Of a stretch of DNA of 46,938 nucleotides, positions 9,715 through 46,823 are shown in pieces (positions within the stretch are counted from its first letter, which is position 1; each line of letters opens with the position of its first letter). The translations under genes were made by a program, and so were the position numbers. Source of the DNA: Streptomycetaceae bacterium. Lineage in GTDB: Bacteria; Actinomycetota; Actinomycetes; Streptomycetales; Streptomycetaceae. The stretch spans positions 1 through 46,938 of the forward strand of contig JAFAUH010000230.1 in assembly GCA_019243445.1 (NCBI GenBank), read 5' to 3'. The notes below the pieces were generated by a model, which saw nothing but the letters and a program-made list of their open reading frames with translations, was not told the DNA's origin and searched no databases.

Positions 9715-11850
9715 ATGAGCGCAGACAACGCCATGCATGCCGCCCAGGGCGGGAGCGAGCGCAAGCGTGGCCTGACCCGTATCGACCTTCGCAGGCTGGG
9801 ACGCGCCGCGTTGCTGACCACCGGAGGTGGTCGCGACCGGCTCCCCGGCGCCATCGAGCACATCGCCAAGGTGCACCGCCGTCACCACCCGCGCGCCGAC
9901 CTCGACACCCTGCGCCGGGCCTATGTGCTCGCCGAGTCCTCGCACCGCGGGCAGATGCGCAAGAGCGGCGAGCCGTACATCACCCACCCGCTTGCGGTCA
10001 CCCTCATCCTCGCCGAACTCGGTGCGGAGACCACGACCTTGACAGCCTCCCTGCTCCACGACACCGTCGAGGACACTGATGTGACCCTTAATCAAGTAAG
10101 GGAACAATTCGGCGAGGAGGTCTGCTATCTCGTCGACGGCGTCACCAAGTTGGAGAAGGTCGACTACGGAGCCGCCGCGGAGCCCGAGACATTCCGCAAG
10201 ATGCTGGTGGCGACCGGCAACGATGTCCGTGTCATGTCGATCAAACTCGCCGACCGGCTGCACAATATGCGCACCCTCGGCGTGATGCGCCCGGAGAAGC
10301 AGCAACGGATCGCCAAAGTCACTCGCGAGGTATTGATCCCGCTCGCCGAGCGGCTCGGCGTCCAAGCGCTCAAGACCGAGTTGGAGGACCTCGTCTTCGA
10401 GATCTTGCACCCTGAGGAGTACGCTGGCGCACGGGAATTGATCCTTACGCACGCTGCGCGCCCCGACCCGCTGGCCAAGACCGCCGACGAGGTACGAGCG
10501 GTGCTGCGCGACGCCGGGCTCGATGCGGAGGTCGGTATCCGCTCGCGGCATGTGCTCTCCGTCCACCGACTGCGCATCAAACGCGGTGGGGAACTCGGCG
10601 GCAACGACTTCGGTCGGCTGCTCGTCCTGGTGGCGGAGAACGCTGACTGCTACGCAGTCCTCGGCGAACTGCACACCTGTTTCACACCGGTGATCGCCGA
10701 GTTCAAGGACTTCATCGCGGCACCGAAGTTCAACCTCTACCAGTCGTTGCACACCGCGATCGCCGACGGTGAGGGTGTGATCACCGAGGTGCTGGTCCGC
10801 ACCCGGCGGATGCACCGGGTAGCCGAGGCCGGCGTCATCGCCCTCGGCAACCCGTACGCCCCGGCCTCCGACCCCGCGCATGACGGCAAGGGCGACGAGG
10901 CGCGCGACGCAGAGCGCATCGACCCGACCCGGCCCGGCTGGCTCTCCCGCCTCCTGGAATGGCAGCGCGACGCCTCCGACCCCGACACTTTCTGGACAGC
11001 GCTGCGCGACGAACTCGCCCAGGATCGGGAGATCACCGTCTTCTCCGCTGACGGCGGCACCATTGGCCTGCCCGCCGGCGCTACCTGCGTCGACGCCGCC
11101 TACGCACTGCACGCCGAGGACGGTCACGCCTGCGTGGGCGCCCGCGTCAACGGGCGGCTGGTCTCGATGGGCACGGTGCTGCGAGACGGAGACACCCTCC
11201 AACTGCTCACTGCTGCCGGCGAGGGCTCCGGCCCGTCCCCCGAATGGCTCGACCACGTCCGCACGGCGGCCGCCCGCATCGCGATCACCCGCTGGCTCGT
11301 CGCGCACCCCGCGTGCAGTGACGACGAGCCGGAGGCTCCCGCCGTCCGGCCCGCTGCGACGCACGAGGCGTCGCCGGCCGCCGAGCCCGTCGTCCTCACC
11401 GACCTGTCAGGCGCGGCGGTCCGGCTTGCGCGCTGTTGTACGCCGGTGCCGCCGGACGCCGTCACTGGCTTCGTCATCCGCGGCGGGACCGTCGCCGTGC
11501 ACCGCGCCGAGTGCCCCGTCGTGGCCCGGATGACCTCATCCGGGCGTGCTCCCCAGGCTGTACGGTGGCGCCCCGGAGTGCCTGCGGCCGGCTATCGCGT
11601 CACGGTGCGCGCCGAGGCACTCGGCCGCCCCCATCTCCTCGCTGACCTCACCGAGGCGATCGCCGCGGAGGGTGTCGGCATCCTCGCTGCCGCCGTTGAG
11701 CCCCCGCAGGAGCAGCGGGTCCGCCACACCTACACCGTTGAGCTCTCCGAGGCGGCTGCGCTGCCCGAGTTGATGCGTGCGATGCGCCGTGTGCCGGGCG
11801 TGTACGACGTCTACCGCACCCACTATCCGGTCGCTACCGCATCCGGCTGA
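9715..11850 (+). CDS. rshA: RelA/SpoT homologue (RshA-like), (p)ppGpp synthetase/hydrolase
   Basis: Long RSH protein of 711 residues. ATG 9715 has GGAGG at 9704-9708; the frame is open further upstream without support. Domains in order: HD hydrolase (SHRGQMRKSGEPYITHP, then LLHDTVEDT with His115-Asp116 and Glu119-Asp120), a synthetase-like domain (FKDFIAAPKFNLYQSLHT intact), TGS (ITVFSADGGTIGLP ... LRDGDTLQLLT), a CCTPVPPDAVTGFVIRGG zinc-finger segment and a C-terminal ACT domain. The synthetase core differs from canonical RelA: where YDLVGIRVLV is usual the sequence reads NDFGRLLVLV, losing the conserved Arg, and the upstream YK..YRK segment is replaced by VLSVHRLR. The hydrolase may therefore dominate. 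It is probably the orthologue of S. coelicolor rshA, distinct from relA. Confidence 0.9.
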   Translation: MSADNAMHAAQGGSERKRGLTRIDLRRLGRAALLTTGGGRDRLPGAIEHIAKVHRRHHPRADLDTLRRAYVLAESSHRGQMRKSGEPYITHPLAVTLILAELGAETTTLTASLLHDTVEDTDVTLNQVREQFGEEVCYLVDGVTKLEKVDYGAAAEPETFRKMLVATGNDVRVMSIKLADRLHNMRTLGVMRPEKQQRIAKVTREVLIPLAERLGVQALKTELEDLVFEILHPEEYAGARELILTHAARPDPLAKTADEVRAVLRDAGLDAEVGIRSRHVLSVHRLRIKRGGELGGNDFGRLLVLVAENADCYAVLGELHTCFTPVIAEFKDFIAAPKFNLYQSLHTAIADGEGVITEVLVRTRRMHRVAEAGVIALGNPYAPASDPAHDGKGDEARDAERIDPTRPGWLSRLLEWQRDASDPDTFWTALRDELAQDREITVFSADGGTIGLPAGATCVDAAYALHAEDGHACVGARVNGRLVSMGTVLRDGDTLQLLTAAGEGSGPSPEWLDHVRTAAARIAITRWLVAHPACSDDEPEAPAVRPAATHEASPAAEPVVLTDLSGAAVRLARCCTPVPPDAVTGFVIRGGTVAVHRAECPVVARMTSSGRAPQAVRWRPGVPAAGYRVTVRAEALGRPHLLADLTEAIAAEGVGILAAAVEPPQEQRVRHTYTVELSEAAALPELMRAMRRVPGVYDVYRTHYPVATASG

Positions 11851-11921
11851 CCGCACTCGGCTGACCGCATCCGGCTGACCGCACTCGGCTGACTGCACTC
11901 GGCTGACCGCACCCGGCTGAC
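11838..11921 (+). repeat. 14-bp minisatellite spanning the rshA stop codon
   Basis: Six tandem units of consensus CGCAYYCGGCTGAC run from 11838 to 11921; they differ mainly at the fifth and sixth positions (ATCC, ACTC or ACCC) and one has TGC for CGC. The rshA stop TGA (11848-11850) is the TGA of the first unit, and every later unit repeats it. Confidence 0.9.
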
Positions 11922-28834: not shown

Positions 28835-29530
28835 ATGCTCTACGAACCTCCTACCCACAGGGTCGAGCGGTCGATTCGAGCCACCCTCGACGTGAAGCTC
28901 GTCGCAGGCGTCGACGAAGTCGGCCGCGGCGCATGGGCGGGGCCGGTCACCGTGTGCGCCGCCGTCACCGGGCTGCGACGCCCCCCCGAGGGCCTCACCG
29001 ATTCGAAGTTGCTCACCATCCCACGTCGCACGGCACTCGCCGAAAAGCTCCTCACGTGGGTCAGCGATCACGCGTTGGGACACGCCTTGCCCGAGGAGAT
29101 CGACGAACTCGGCATGACCGCCGCCTTGCGCCTCGCTGCCGAGCGTGCGCTCAAAGGATTGTCCGTCCGCCCCGATGCCGTGATTCTCGACGGCAAGCAC
29201 GACTATCTCGGTGCTCCCTGGCAAGTCCGCACCGTGATCAAGGGTGATCAGTCGTGCGTCTCGGTCGCCGCTGCGTCCGTGATCGCCAAGGTGCACCGTG
29301 ATGCGCTCATGGCCGAACTGGGTGCCCAGTACACTGCGTTCGGATTCGACTCCAACGCGGGATACCCTTCGCCGGTGCATCGCGTCGCGCTGGAGGAGCG
29401 GGGCCCCACCCCGCACCACCGGTTGTCCTGGGCCTACCTCGACGCACTGCCCCGGTGGCGGCACTTGCGGAAGGTCCGCGCATCCGCCGATGAGGCGGAA
29501 GGGATCGAGCAGTTGGGACTCGATTTCTGA
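28835..29530 (+). CDS. rnhB: Ribonuclease HII
   Basis: Removes RNA from RNA/DNA hybrids and single ribonucleotides from DNA. The 231-residue product has the catalytic DEVGRG motif ([14 protein letters not shown]), LTDSKLL, the third acidic site in [10 protein letters not shown] and [13 protein letters not shown], all typical of RNase HII. ATG 28835 (MLYEPPTH) is 7 bp downstream of the preceding gene's stop. The proximity to NrdRJ and DinG is thematically consistent with ribonucleotide and R-loop handling, although that link is inference. Confidence 0.95.
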
Positions 29531-40675: not shown

Positions 40676-41109
40676 CGCTCGTAGCTTTCCCTCGAAAGTT
40701 GAGCCCGAGGCGGCCGGATGTTGCCGGTTGGCGGCGAATAGGCCTTGATGTCGTATTTTTTACTGTCTAGGTCACTTGTTGGGTATTCGTCCTCCGGCTT
40801 GGTGTGCCGGTTGTTGAAGAGGACGTGCCCGGAGCCTAAATGGTTCATGCCTTCTTGGGAACGTGATGTGGCTATCACTCGAAGGGGGTATCGAACGGAT
40901 GATCGGTTCAACGCTAGCATGGGAACCTGAGTCGGGTCGTGGCGTAGCGCCGGTACGGGCATCGGTACCCTCTCTTCGGTGTACAACCCTTGGCGCCGCC
41001 CACGGTCCCGCCGCGCGGCCTCTAAGCCGTACGCGCTGCCAACAACGCCAGAAGTGACGCCAGAAGTAACGTCAGAAGAACGACGCAAGAAGTGCGAGGA
41101 ACTGCCCGC
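40676..41109. other. Non-coding spacer before parE
   Basis: These 434 bp are less GC-rich than their surroundings and include a TATTTTTTACTGTC stretch near 40752. No ORF with protein character, tRNA or strong hairpin is visible. It presumably carries the parE promoter; near its end GAAGTGACGCCAGAAGTAAC shows a degenerate repeat of GCCAGAAGT/GTCAGAAGA (41048-41080). Confidence 0.5.
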
Positions 41110-43230
41110 GTGACCGCCGACACATCAGCGACGTCGACCGCCCTGCTGAGCGGGGCGGACCGCGACGGCTCCAACTACACCGCGCGGCATCTGCTCGTCC
41201 TCGAAGGTCTCGAGGCAGTGCGCAAGCGTCCGGGCATGTACATCGGTTCGACCGACAGCCGTGGTCTGATGCACTGCCTCTGGGAGATCATCGACAATTC
41301 GGTCGACGAAGCGCTCGGGGGCCACTGCGACCACATCGAGGTCGTGCTGCACGACGACGGTTCCGTAGAAGTACGGGACAACGGCCGCGGCATTCCGGTC
41401 GATGTCGAGCCTAAAACCAAGCTGTCCGGGGTCGAGGTTGTCATGACTAAGCTGCATGCGGGCGGAAAGTTCGGCGGCGGCTCGTACGCGGCCTCCGGCG
41501 GCCTGCACGGAGTCGGCGCCTCGGTTGTCAATGCGCTCTCCTCCCGCCTCGACGTCGAGGTTGATCGCAGCGGCCATACGCACGCGATCAGCTTCCGTCG
41601 CGGCGTGCCGGGCATCTTCACCGAGCTCGGTCCCGAGGCCCCGTTCGACCCGGTGAGCGGCCTGCGCAAGACGAAGAAGATCGCCAAGGCGCGCACCGGA
41701 ACCCGTGTGCGGTTCTGGGCCGACCGCCAGATCTTCCTCAAGGACGCCAGGATCTCGGTGGAGAATCTCCACCAGCGCGCACGGCAGACAGCCTTCCTCG
41801 TACCCGGCCTGACCATTGTTGTGCGCGATGAGCGCGGTCTCGACGACGACAAGCCGGTCGAGGAGACGTTCCGATACGACGGCGGAATCGGCGAGTTCTG
41901 CGAGTACCTCGCCGAGGACAAAGCCATCTGTGACGTATTGCGCCTCCAGGGCGAGGGAAGTTTCAAGGAGACCGTCCCCGTCCTCGACGCCCGTGGTCAC
42001 ATGACACCGACTGAGGTCACGCGCCATCTCGGGGTGGACGTCGCGCTGCGTTGGGGCGCCGGTTACGACACCACGATGCGTTCGTTCGTCAACATCATCG
42101 CAACGCCCAAGGGTGGCACGCACATTGCGGGCTTCGAACGTTCCGTCACCCGCACTTTCAACGAGGTTCTGCGTTCCACCAAGTTGCTGCGTGTCGCCGA
42201 GGACGACATCGTCAAGGACGATGCGTTGGAGGGCCTCACAGCAGTGGTGACGGTACGCCTCGCCGAGCCGCAATTCGAGGGGCAGACCAAGGAAGTGCTC
42301 GGCACCTCCGCCGCCTCGCGGATCGTCGCCACCGTGGTGGCGAAAGAGCTGAAGGCATTCCTCACCTCCACCAAACGCGATCATAAGCAGCAGGCGCGCG
42401 CAGTGCTGGAGAAGGTGGTTGCAGCGGCCCGTACGCGGATCGCCGCCCGCCAGCACAAGGAGGCGCAGCGTCGCAAGACGGCTCTGGAATCGTCCTCACT
42501 CCCCGCCAAGCTCGCCGACTGCCGCAGCGACGACGTCAACCGCACCGAACTGTTCATCGTCGAGGGCGACTCGGCGCTCGGCACGGCCAAGGTCGCGCGG
42601 AATTCGGAGTTCCAGGCGCTGCTTCCCATCCGCGGCAAGATCCTCAACGTGCAGAAGTCGTCGATCTCGGACATGTTGAAGAACGCCGAGTGCGGAGCGA
42701 TCATCCAGGTGATAGGAGCCGGGTCGGGTCGGACCTTCGACATCGACCAGGCGCGGTACGGGAAGGTCATCTTCCTCGCCGACGCGGATGTGGACGGGGC
42801 CCACATCCGCTGCCTTCTGCTCACTCTCTTCCAGCGGTACATGCGGCCGATGGTGGAGGAGGGACGTGTCTTCTCCGCGGTGCCGCCGTTGCACCGTATC
42901 GAACTGGCCAACCCCAAGAAGGGGCAGGAGAAGTACCTCTACACCTACTCGGACAACGAGTTGCATCAGACTCTGCTCGATCTGCAGCGCAGGAATGTGC
43001 GCTACAAGGAGAGCATCCAGCGCTACAAGGGCCTTGGTGAGATGGATGCCGACCAGTTGGCGGAGACCACCATGGACCCGCGCCACCGCACCCTGCGCAG
43101 GATCAATATCGGCGATCTGGAGGCGGCTGAGCGCGCCTTCGATCTGCTGATGGGCAATGAGGTGGCACCGCGCAAGGAGTTCATCACCAGCTCTGCGGCG
43201 ACCTTGGACCGTTCGCGCATTGACGCCTGA
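41110..43230 (+). CDS. parE: DNA topoisomerase IV subunit B (ParE)
   Basis: ATPase subunit of topoisomerase IV, which decatenates sister chromosomes. The 706-residue product shows the GHKL ATPase motifs EIIDNSVDEALGG, RDNGRGIPVD and ASGGLHGVGASVVNALS, the transducer domain, and the TOPRIM motifs VEGDSALGTAK and LADADVDGAHIRCLL. The N-terminal RPGMYIGST is shared with GyrB. GTG 41110 (MTADTSATSTALLSGADRDGSNYTARHLLVLEGL) agrees with S. coelicolor ParE as remembered; an in-frame ATG at 41092 is less likely. Assignment to ParE rather than GyrB rests on genomic position and on this N-terminus; parC is not in the window. Confidence 0.92.
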   Translation: MTADTSATSTALLSGADRDGSNYTARHLLVLEGLEAVRKRPGMYIGSTDSRGLMHCLWEIIDNSVDEALGGHCDHIEVVLHDDGSVEVRDNGRGIPVDVEPKTKLSGVEVVMTKLHAGGKFGGGSYAASGGLHGVGASVVNALSSRLDVEVDRSGHTHAISFRRGVPGIFTELGPEAPFDPVSGLRKTKKIAKARTGTRVRFWADRQIFLKDARISVENLHQRARQTAFLVPGLTIVVRDERGLDDDKPVEETFRYDGGIGEFCEYLAEDKAICDVLRLQGEGSFKETVPVLDARGHMTPTEVTRHLGVDVALRWGAGYDTTMRSFVNIIATPKGGTHIAGFERSVTRTFNEVLRSTKLLRVAEDDIVKDDALEGLTAVVTVRLAEPQFEGQTKEVLGTSAASRIVATVVAKELKAFLTSTKRDHKQQARAVLEKVVAAARTRIAARQHKEAQRRKTALESSSLPAKLADCRSDDVNRTELFIVEGDSALGTAKVARNSEFQALLPIRGKILNVQKSSISDMLKNAECGAIIQVIGAGSGRTFDIDQARYGKVIFLADADVDGAHIRCLLLTLFQRYMRPMVEEGRVFSAVPPLHRIELANPKKGQEKYLYTYSDNELHQTLLDLQRRNVRYKESIQRYKGLGEMDADQLAETTMDPRHRTLRRINIGDLEAAERAFDLLMGNEVAPRKEFITSSAATLDRSRIDA

Positions 43231-43312: not shown

Positions 43313-44002
43313 TCAGAGCAGCGCTCGGTAGCGGTGCTCCGGGCGCCCTGTAGCCCCGTACCGCAGTTCGAGGCGGGCGAGCCCTTCCCGGACGAGGTAG
43401 GACAGATAGCGCTGGGCGGTGGCCCGCGATACCCCCGTTGCCTCCGCTACCTCAGCTGCCGACAGATCCCGCTGGGCCGATCGCACCGCGTCTCGCACCA
43501 GCGCCAACGTCGGTGCCGAGTGGCCCTTGGCCGGCACGGCCGGAAGGGCGCTCGGCCGGGCCGCGCTGAACAGCGCGTCCACATCCGCCTGGTTGGCCTC
43601 CGCCTGCGGGTCCAGCGCGTCCACTCGGTGGCGCAACTCGCGGTAGAAGGTGAGCCGTTCGGCAAGTGCAGCGGACCCGAAGGGCTTGACGAGATAGCCC
43701 ACAGCGCCCAGTTGCATCGCTGCTCGTACTGATGCGACATCCCGGGCCGCGGTCGTCATGATCGCATCCGGACGTGCGCCGTTCGCGTCGCCGGTGAGCT
43801 GACGCAGCACGTCAAACCCGCTGCCGTCGGGCAGATACACATCGAGTAGCAACAGATCCGGTTGCAGCGAGCCGACTGCCTCCAATGCCTCGGCGACCGT
43901 CCCCGACTGCCTCACCACTTCAAACCCGGGCACCCGTTCGACGTATGCGGCGTGGATGCCACTCACCCGGAAGTCGTCCTCGACGACGAGGGTTCTGATC
44001 AC
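43313..44002 (-). CDS. CitB/DcuR-type response regulator
   Basis: The 229-residue product has an N-terminal receiver (LVVEDDFRV with the acidic pair, phospho-acceptor Asp in LLLLDVYLPDGSGFDVL, T/S and Lys in IMTTAARD and GYLVKPF) and a C-terminal helix-turn-helix (DLSAAEVAEATGVSRATAQRYLSYLVREGLARLEL), the CitB family arrangement. GTG 44002 overlaps the kinase stop TGA (GTGA), so translation is coupled. Members of this family usually respond to citrate or C4-dicarboxylates and activate the genes of the corresponding transporter, so the divergent ABC transporter is a candidate target, although it is of a different transporter type. Confidence 0.93.
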   Translation of the reverse strand: MIRTLVVEDDFRVSGIHAAYVERVPGFEVVRQSGTVAEALEAVGSLQPDLLLLDVYLPDGSGFDVLRQLTGDANGARPDAIMTTAARDVASVRAAMQLGAVGYLVKPFGSAALAERLTFYRELRHRVDALDPQAEANQADVDALFSAARPSALPAVPAKGHSAPTLALVRDAVRSAQRDLSAAEVAEATGVSRATAQRYLSYLVREGLARLELRYGATGRPEHRYRALL

Positions 44003-45724
44003 TCGTCTGCTCCCTTTTCAGCCAGTCGGGGTGTCAGCGGAGTGTCCGTGCCGTCTGTGCCGTCTGTGCCGTCTGTGAGGTCCGGCCTCGTCCTGTCCGG
44101 CCCTGCCTTGTCCAGCCGAGTCCCGTTGGGCTGCGGCAGAACCACGGTGAAGACCGCACCAGGGCCTTCACTGACGTCGATCGTGCCCCCGTGCCGCTGC
44201 ACCAGACGGTGCACCAGGGCGAGGCCGAGCCCGCGGCGCGCGGTGCCGCGGCCGGGACGAGTCGACCAGCCGTCTTCAAAGATCCGATTCCGCCTCCCGG
44301 CAGGCACGCCGACACCGGTGTCGGTCACCCGTACTGTCACCCGCGCGGGGTCCTCGACCACTGAAAGACGCACCTCGGGCGACCCTTGGCTACCGGAGGC
44401 CGCTGCATCCACCGCGTTGTCGACGAGATTGCCGACGATGGTCAGCAACCGATCCAAGTGCGGTGGCTGTTCTCCGAGTTCGGAGTCCTCGCTGAGTACG
44501 AGGCGCACCCCGCGTTCAGCTGCGACCGTGGTCTTGGCCATCACCAGGCCCACCATCAGCGGATTGCCGATCCGTTCGCGCACCGATTCGGCGAGCGATG
44601 GCTCCGCCCCGGCCGATTTCACCGCGAACTCGTATGCCGCGTCGTGCTCACCCAGCTCCAGCAGCCCAGCGAGGATGTGCATGCGGTTGGAGAACTCGTG
44701 CTGTTGCGAGCGGAGGGCGTCAGTCAGTCCACGTACCGAGTCCAATTCGCGCAACAAGCCGACGAGTTCGGTACGGTCGCGTACGGTCACCACGGCACCG
44801 AGTTCGTGGCCGTGCAGCGTCACCGGCATCCGATTGACCACGAGGCAGTGGCTGTCGGTGAGTACCGTCACATCGCTGCCGGTGAGGGTGCCGTCCAAGG
44901 CGCGGCGCAGCCGCCCGTCCGGCAATACCTCGTCGAGCCGGGAGCCCAGGGCGGTGCCGAGCCCGAGCAGTCGGCGCGCCTCGTCGTTGACGACCGTGAT
45001 CCTCTCTTGTGGATCGAGGGCGACCACACCTTCGCGGATGCCGTGCAGCATTGCCTCGCGATCCTGCAGCAGCCCGGCGATGTCCTCGAGTTCCAGGCCG
45101 AATGTCGACTTCTTCAACCGGCGGGCGAGAGCATACGAGGCAATGACGCCTACGGCGAGGGCGATTCCAGTATAAAGCCCGAAAGTGGGCAATTCATTCC
45201 ATAGTTGTCCGGTGGCCTGCTTCTCCGGGATCCCTGCCGACACCTGGCCCACGAGTTTGCCGCTCGGGCCGAAGAGTGGGGCCTTGCCATTGGCCGAACG
45301 GCCCGTGAAACCCACGTCGATGCCCACGTGTGTCTCGCTGTCCACCTTCACATCCGGATCCCCCTTGCCGATGAGGGCAGGATGGGGGTGTGAGTGCCGG
45401 ACCCCCCCGCAGGTCGAACACCACGACGTATGAGGCATGGGAGGCGTTCTTGATCCGCTGTGCGATCTCCTGCACCACGTTCCCGCCTCCTCCATACTCC
45501 ATGGCGTACCGGATCTGTGGCTCGGCGGCGGTGGTGCGGGCGATGGCCAGGGCTCGGTTTTCGTATTCCTGGTCCAACTGGGCGCGCTGCGCGACGGCAA
45601 GCAGGATAAAGCCGATGGCGCTGGTCAGGGCGAGGATGGCCAGTTGCCACACAAGAATGCGGGCGTACAGCTTCCGGTTCCGGTCGCGCCATCCACGGAT
45701 CCGATTCAGCGCGTGCAGGGACAT
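43999..45724 (-). pseudogene. CitA/DcuS-type sensor histidine kinase, frameshifted in a G7 run
   Basis: Membrane sensor of the SPOB_a/CitA family. The N-terminal part (ATG 45724, MSLHALNRIRGWRDRNRKLY) has a membrane helix (LVWQLAILALTSAIGFILLAV) and begins the extracellular PAS domain up to SYVVVFDLRG. At 45402-45408 (seven C on the plus strand, seven G in the gene) the frame shifts: removing one G joins it to VRHSHPHPALIGKGDPDV in the frame that continues through a second membrane helix, a cytoplasmic PAS, the phospho-acceptor His in QQHEFSNRMHILAGLLELG, and the ATPase motifs NLVDNAVDAA, DTGVGVP and GLGLALVHRLV to the stop at 43999. Either the gene is a pseudogene, the run is phase variable, or it is a sequencing error. 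A 9-bp tandem repeat encodes TDG repeats near the C-terminus. Confidence 0.85.
44049..44075. repeat. 9-bp tandem repeat near the kinase 3' end
   Basis: Three perfect units TGCCGTCTG encode a Thr-Asp-Gly repeat between the ATPase domain and the C-terminus of the kinase. The frame is kept. Confidence 0.75.
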
Positions 45725-45935
45725 TGTCCCGATTGTGCATGGCCACAACCGATCTGCCTACCCCCCCCGCGGGGCAGTGGTAGTGAGCACAACGCACACA
45801 ACCTTCCTCAACGCGGGAAAGCCTCGTAACGCACGCAAGACTCGTCGCCCCGCCACACCCGCCCTACGGTCTCGACACCCGCTTGAAACCCCCGCGAAAC
45901 GCATGGGTGCTTGCGGCTGAAAGGAGACGGATGCA

Positions 45936-46823
45936 ATGGCTGCTGGAAGCAACCATGCAGTGAGGCCGCTGGCCGATCTCGGTGCCAAGGAGTCGAGGCA
46001 GGAACGCTCACGTATCGAGATGTCGGGGGTGACGAGGCGCTTCGCCTCGCCGACCGGCAAGCTGTTCACCGCGCTGCGGGATGTGAACTTCATCGTTGAG
46101 CCAGGTCAGTTCTGCGCCGTCGTCGGACCGACCGGCTGTGGCAAGTCGACCACGCTCGGCTTGGTCGCCGGGCTCGACCAGCCGAGCGCGGGCACGGTCC
46201 ACGTGGGCGGGCAGGAAGTGAGGGGGATCACCTCGGGCATCAGCTTCATGTTCCAGGCCGACGCATTGCTGCCGTGGAAGACGGTGCTCGGCAACGTGGC
46301 GATGGGCCCGATGTTCCGCGGCGTCTCCAAGCAGAAGGCGCACGCCTCCGCCCGGGACTGGCTGCGCAGGGTGGGCCTCGCCGGTTTCGAGGACCACCAC
46401 CCCCACCAGCTCTCCGGAGGTATGCGTAAACGCGCCAGCATGGCGGCGGCACTGATCAACGAGCCGTCGATCCTGCTCATGGACGAGCCTTTCGGTGCCC
46501 TGGATGTGCAGACCAAGGCGATCATGTCGAACGAGTTGCTCGGTCTGTGGGAAGAGCTCAAGCCCTCGGTGCTCTTCATCACCCACGACTTGGAGGAGGC
46601 CGTCGCTCTCGCCGACCGCGTCGTGGTGATGACTTCGCGCCCCGGGACGATCAAGGGCAGCTACGACATCGATCTTCCGCGGCCGCGCGGTGCGGTCCAG
46701 GAAATCCGCTTCGATCCCCGCTTCCTCGAACTCCACCACCAGATCTGGGAGTCGCTCAAAGACGAGGTGGAACGCGCCTACGCCGGCACTGCCCAGGCTT
46801 CGACCACTGAGGGAGGTAAATGA
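45936..46823 (+). CDS. ABC transporter ATP-binding protein (nitrate/sulfonate/taurine type)
   Basis: The 295-residue nucleotide-binding subunit has Walker A VGPTGCGKSTT, the signature LSGGMRKRAS, Walker B ILLMDEPFGALD and the switch His in ITHDLEEAV. The MFQADALLPWKTVLGNV Q-loop and the C-terminal MTSRPGTIKGSYDIDLPRPRG are characteristic of the SsuB/TauB/NrtC group, which imports nitrate, sulfonates, taurine or related compounds. ATG 45936 has AAGGAG 10 bp upstream. The first ~25 residues are an extra N-terminal extension. It is divergent from the two-component system and followed, with overlap, by the next transporter gene. Confidence 0.93.
   Translation: MAAGSNHAVRPLADLGAKESRQERSRIEMSGVTRRFASPTGKLFTALRDVNFIVEPGQFCAVVGPTGCGKSTTLGLVAGLDQPSAGTVHVGGQEVRGITSGISFMFQADALLPWKTVLGNVAMGPMFRGVSKQKAHASARDWLRRVGLAGFEDHHPHQLSGGMRKRASMAAALINEPSILLMDEPFGALDVQTKAIMSNELLGLWEELKPSVLFITHDLEEAVALADRVVVMTSRPGTIKGSYDIDLPRPRGAVQEIRFDPRFLELHHQIWESLKDEVERAYAGTAQASTTEGGK

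Follow-up and report, generated by a model that had tools for sequence, protein, structure and literature searches.

Is the CitA/DcuS-type sensor kinase gene carried by this Streptomycetaceae genome truly interrupted, and, if so, does the interruption mark a lost gene, a reversible switch, a recoding site or an error in the assembly? The window (the whole stretch of DNA analysed, 46,938 nucleotides) is an entire contig (C338) of a fragmented draft genome, G000, of 5.36 Mb in 414 contigs, with an estimated completeness of 96.2% and contamination of 4.96%.

Results

A Frame Break at a G Run Divides the Kinase Gene

The kinase gene extends on the minus strand from an ATG at 45724 to a stop at 43999, and the frame of its start and that of its kinase domain are one base apart. 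It and its neighbors are arranged as follows.

41092–43230, plus strand: gyrB/parE-like gene downstream of the response regulator gene, context intact
43313–44002, minus strand: intact DcuR/DpiA-type response regulator, with GGGAG 7 nt upstream of its GTG start
43999–45401, minus strand: 3′ part of the kinase gene, with the RHSHP motif, remaining sCache, second transmembrane stretch (TM2), PAS, SPOB_a and HATPase_c, stop TGA at 43999–44001 (ORF 43999–45600; Pfam matches; DcuS/MalK-type NCBIfam matches)
45194–45401, minus strand: out-of-frame tail of the truncated product by ORF reading, stop at 45194–45196
45402–45408, minus strand: run of seven G (seven C on the plus strand), where the frame shifts by a net +1
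45409–45724, minus strand: 5′ part of the kinase gene in the original frame, with the ATG, the first transmembrane stretch and the opening half of the periplasmic sCache/PAS domain (ORF 45194–45748; sCache_3_2 profile positions 2–63)
45936–46823, plus strand: ABC transporter ATPase, taurine/nitrate/sulfonate-like (ORF and family matches), divergent from the kinase

The original prediction, that a frameshift at the G run splits a CitA-type kinase, was borne out: the gene has no uninterrupted reading frame, and its two parts match intact orthologues in frames one base apart. Because both halves match one continuous gene of S. humicola at 85% DNA identity, the split is beyond chance. The frame of the 3′ part stays open upstream beyond the G run, and removal of one base restores a full-length kinase, as had been proposed, with a length of 574 residues from the ATG; the 575 given earlier counts the stop codon (575 codons, spanning 1,726 nt). 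As it stands, the predicted product from the ATG is 176 residues long, is out of frame after the run, and is devoid of TM2, the PAS domain and the kinase domain. A frame model based on composition alone placed one frame change in the whole window, at this same run, and neither the alignment to relatives nor the composition scan revealed another lesion in the kinase–response regulator operon. A tblastn screen for frame breaks, run with the ORFs of S. humicola and used as supporting information only, listed 15 breaks in the window, mainly antisense or intergenic frames, with the kinase break repeated several times among them. In the course of this screen we met a short tandem repeat, CTGACCGCA(C/T)(T/C)CGG, at 11640–11900.

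The domain set expected of a CitA/DcuS-type kinase (sCache/PDC, PAS, SPOB-type, HATPase_c) is present; in the window it is divided between two frames, and in S. humicola all of it lies in one. The Pfam sCache_3_2 match is itself divided, with profile positions 2–63 in one frame and 94–137, below the cut-off, in the other, whereas the S. humicola orthologue covers positions 2–137 in a single frame. The SPOB_a match lies just above its cut-off of 28.1 in the window (28.5) and just below it in S. humicola (27.8). The window thus shares its domain order with the CitA/DcuS kinases that are paired with a DcuR/DpiA-type regulator, and among solved structures its periplasmic domain is matched best by DcuS and CitA. 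In the relatives, the sequence immediately following the position of the break is RHSHP, which corresponds in the alignment to RYSHP in E. coli DcuS (structure 3by8), a motif whose arginine and histidine contact the ligand. Unlike those kinases, the gene described here is broken just before RxSHP, and every NCBIfam match falls below its cut-off.

As had also been claimed, the downstream response regulator gene is intact and translationally coupled to the kinase gene, its GTG start overlapping the kinase TGA as GTGA. On the other side, the divergent ABC transporter suggests that the sensed substrate may be something other than citrate or a C4-dicarboxylate. In S. humicola the ABC ATPase gene is followed by genes for a permease and an NMT1_2 binding protein and by a gene that we take, from its sequence, to be parC-like; the locus is flanked on its opposite side by a gyrB/parE-like gene. 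The divergent promoter region of the window also contains a run of eight C at 45761–45768, 37 nt upstream of the kinase ATG; at this position S. humicola and S. rubrisoli have five C followed by other sequence, making this a second lengthened run beside the kinase.

The Break Is Private to One Genome

The nearest relatives of the window kinase are those of S. humicola and Streptantibioticus rubrisoli (85% and 80% DNA identity, respectively). Compared with both, the window is longer by a net one base at the run, and neither relative has a G run there: the site reads CTG CAC GGA GTC in S. humicola and CTG CGC GGA ATC in S. rubrisoli. Elsewhere in the kinase core, each gap of the alignment is offset by one or more others close by; only the C-terminal tail has irregular gaps. 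The comparison of the frame in orthologues that had been recommended at the outset gave a uniform answer: read codon by codon, 29 of 29 distinct loci keep the frame across the site and 0 of 29 have the G run (32 loci minus the window's own copy, L001, and the duplicates L003 and L005). The lesion is therefore absent from the relatives examined, as a recent pseudogene would require, and the tract retention expected of a contingency locus is not seen among them. Because every orthologue is in frame and none has the run, we regard the break as a singleton, belonging neither to a conserved contingency locus nor to a programmed recoding site.

When 394 genomes of the family were searched at the protein level, the matches listed included 50 at no less than 66% identity, from 48 genomes including that of the window. 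Only two of these 50 lack the N-terminal part, the window (match from residue 106) and genome G182 (from residue 147). The G182 orthologue (L009), on a single 8.4 Mb contig, has a different one-base break in a run of five C at about 1,897–1,909 of G182:C1, some 40 codons past the focal site. To judge from these sequences, the kinase family suffers independent breaks at G/C runs (two of 50 among the matches listed) with no site in common. Matches in G016, G027 and G004 end early, and the first two read through when checked codon by codon; the G013 match has one in-frame TGA. A further apparent broken orthologue (L028) was rejected, as the stretch merely holds a run of N.

The Downstream Half Is Still Constrained

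The dN/dS ratio against S. humicola is 0.167 for the C-terminal half of the kinase, 0.293 for the N-terminal half (103 codons), 0.057 for the response regulator and 0.055 for the gyrB-like gene; the last value rests on S. humicola, since the S. rubrisoli stretch compared gave no true orthologue. When amino-acid changes were polarized with S. rubrisoli as outgroup, the C-terminal half had accumulated 18 on the branch to the window and 19 on that to S. humicola (450 codons); the N-terminal half had four and none, respectively, too few to read over 101 codons. By these measures the downstream half is under ordinary purifying selection, with no mark of long decay. Neither the relaxed selection nor the further lesions of an older pseudogene were found, the operon showing no other break. 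Given a constrained C-terminal half and the even split of changes between the two branches, the lesion should be very recent within its lineage, or not a fixed pseudogene, or an error in the consensus.

Breaks Are Not in Excess at Homopolymer Runs of the Assembly

To see whether reading frames continue across G/C runs, we sampled G000 itself (74 stretches, 903,965 unmasked bases) and, as a control, G001, the one congener listed for it (24 stretches, 480,000 bases). Strict thresholds left most runs uncallable, and the final analysis used looser thresholds with a gene-boundary filter. Among six callable runs of seven in G000, four keep the same frame, one lies at a gene boundary and one, the focal run, is a break; at runs of six, 62 of 71 keep the frame, nine are gene boundaries and none is a break. 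Breaks number two of 553 at runs of five, one of them in a C5 run adjoining the focal run and reflecting the same event, and nine of 2,526 at runs of four. The corresponding counts in G001 are 0 of 47, 0 of 383 and 0 of 1,668 at runs of six, five and four. The focal run is thus the only clear break at a run of at least six in the 0.90 Mb sampled, and breaks in G000 do not rise with run length, length 7 being represented by only six runs and so forming a small control. Two further candidates, a C7 run at L101 9760 and a C6 run at L058 5543, turned out, once their frames were read, to be gene boundaries, presumably atpE/atpF and pstA/pstB as named from their protein sequences; one more candidate break is listed in stretch L087. 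Another C7 run in the window itself, at 28981–28987, lies in a confidently coding stretch whose frame is kept on both sides.

An ab initio composition scan flagged candidate frame changes at 27 places in the 749,598 coding bases of G000 and at 23 in the 396,255 of G001; one of the 27 and one of the 23 lie at a run of at least five. Compared with G001, therefore, G000 shows somewhat more breaks at runs of four in the run test and a lower overall candidate rate in the scan. The lack of an excess of breaks at runs argues against data prone to homopolymer error.

NucS Is Present and MutS Absent

All 11 genomes examined carry NucS_C, and none of the 11 gave MutS_V, with the control detected in 11 of 14. 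The nucS gene of G000 itself (L165 10735–11181, G000:C312, minus strand) looks chimeric: its N-terminal part is near-identical to that of S. humicola and is followed by an in-frame insert of about 28 residues repeating the VAVEIKR motif and then by a diverged C-terminal part. This may reflect recombination or a misassembled contig, and we consider the function of the product doubtful.

Discussion

We propose that the kinase has become a null allele through a recent, lineage-specific, slipped-strand insertion of one base into a run of six G. This is the most likely reading, to which we assign a probability of roughly 0.53, and a consensus error is the next most likely. By its sequence context the break looks like an ordinary singleton frameshift, with no conserved switch. 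The G run would have arisen by drift in the lineage of the window (CGG GGG GTC as against CAC GGA GTC or CGC GGA ATC), and slipped-strand mispairing would then have extended six G to seven, shifting the frame by +1. Support for slippage as the origin comes by analogy only, from the NucS background and from poly-G precedents: NucS of M. smegmatis leaves indels of 1–2 bp unrepaired, as stated in the accessible portion of PMC11551767; M. tuberculosis glpK contains a 7-bp poly-G tract that the portion of PMC11898584 at hand calls a highly mutagenic, phase-variable hot spot; and insertions from 7C to 8C in the M. bovis glpK tract, possibly through drift, are reported in the corresponding part of PMC9455707. 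A ribosome translating the seven-G allele would go out of frame right ahead of RxSHP, the ligand-contacting motif, and stop about 70 codons later, so that the ligand pocket, TM2 and kinase core would be missing. As this stop lies some 1.2 kb short of the coupled response regulator gene, output of the regulator may fall too; the GGGAG ahead of its GTG may preserve some independent initiation.

The strongest competitor to a real insertion is a consensus error from sequencing or assembly, in which case the organism has a run one base shorter and an intact kinase. We judge this appreciably less probable than not, and still a serious contender: the site is a homopolymer, the break is the sole lesion of an otherwise constrained operon and a singleton among orthologues, and the draft is fragmented, with appreciable estimated contamination. 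Moreover, in the available text of the GeneTack survey, singleton frameshifts validated by BLAST are expected to be mostly sequencing errors (PMC3711429), and the window gene resembles these singletons in being homology-validated with no relative sharing the break, no difference being evident from that text. Against this, frame is kept or a gene boundary found at every callable run of six or seven other than the focal one, so that the G000 control favors a real indel over a homopolymer-driven error, though a single wrong base may yet underlie the break. Two of the four readings originally offered, a recent pseudogene and a sequencing error, thus both fit the data, while a phase switch gained no positive support and programmed slippage was not supported.

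A phase-variable contingency locus, in which fast switching of run length toggles the kinase and, through polarity, the response regulator, strikes us as unlikely. A seven-base G/C tract in a NucS-bearing genome without MutS recalls M. tuberculosis glpK (PMC11898584 and PMC9455707, as far as their available text goes): both are coding tracts of seven G or C in an actinobacterium with NucS and no MutS, where a change of one base shifts the frame. The continued constraint on both kinase halves and the C8 run upstream of the ATG would also suit such a locus. In glpK, however, reversibility and recurrent length variation are known, whereas the window tract belongs to a single genome; and the breaking form is the seven-base run in the window and the change from 7C to 8C in glpK, according to the same part of PMC9455707. 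The absence of the tract from all 29 orthologues gives no sign of selection to keep it, and the kinase locus has a single match in its own assembly, with no second allele. Classic contingency tracts are usually longer than seven bases, and this one is short by that standard. A limited search of open-access literature yielded no title on a homopolymer phase-variation switch in Streptomyces. The narrower proposal that a newly arisen G7 lets a Streptomycetaceae population toggle the kinase, and via translational coupling a regulator of the ABC transporter, by reversible slippage is more doubtful still. Programmed +1 ribosomal frameshifting or transcriptional slippage on the seven-G form would indeed yield the full-length kinase, the two frames overlapping widely, yet it is very improbable: no orthologue has either the run or a break at the site, the downstream RNA folds no better than shuffled sequence (z = +1.12), so that neither a conserved shift site nor a stimulatory signal was found, and bacterial transcriptional slippage occurs mostly on A or T runs according to the accessible portion of PMC3711429. 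Least credible of all is a split two-gene system in which the downstream half would be translated alone, giving a short or soluble kinase; possible start codons in its frame do occur downstream, both GTG and ATG (one of them the ATG at 45051), but inspection by eye reveals no good ribosome-binding site ahead of them, and the architecture is absent from all relatives examined.

What is the relevance of this lesion? As a single private frameshift in a single draft genome, it means little as it stands. If the seven-G allele is real and variable, switching of the glpK type would extend from mycobacteria to relatives of Streptomyces, and to a signaling gene. In that event, G/C runs across this clade, with NucS and without MutS, would be worth surveying.
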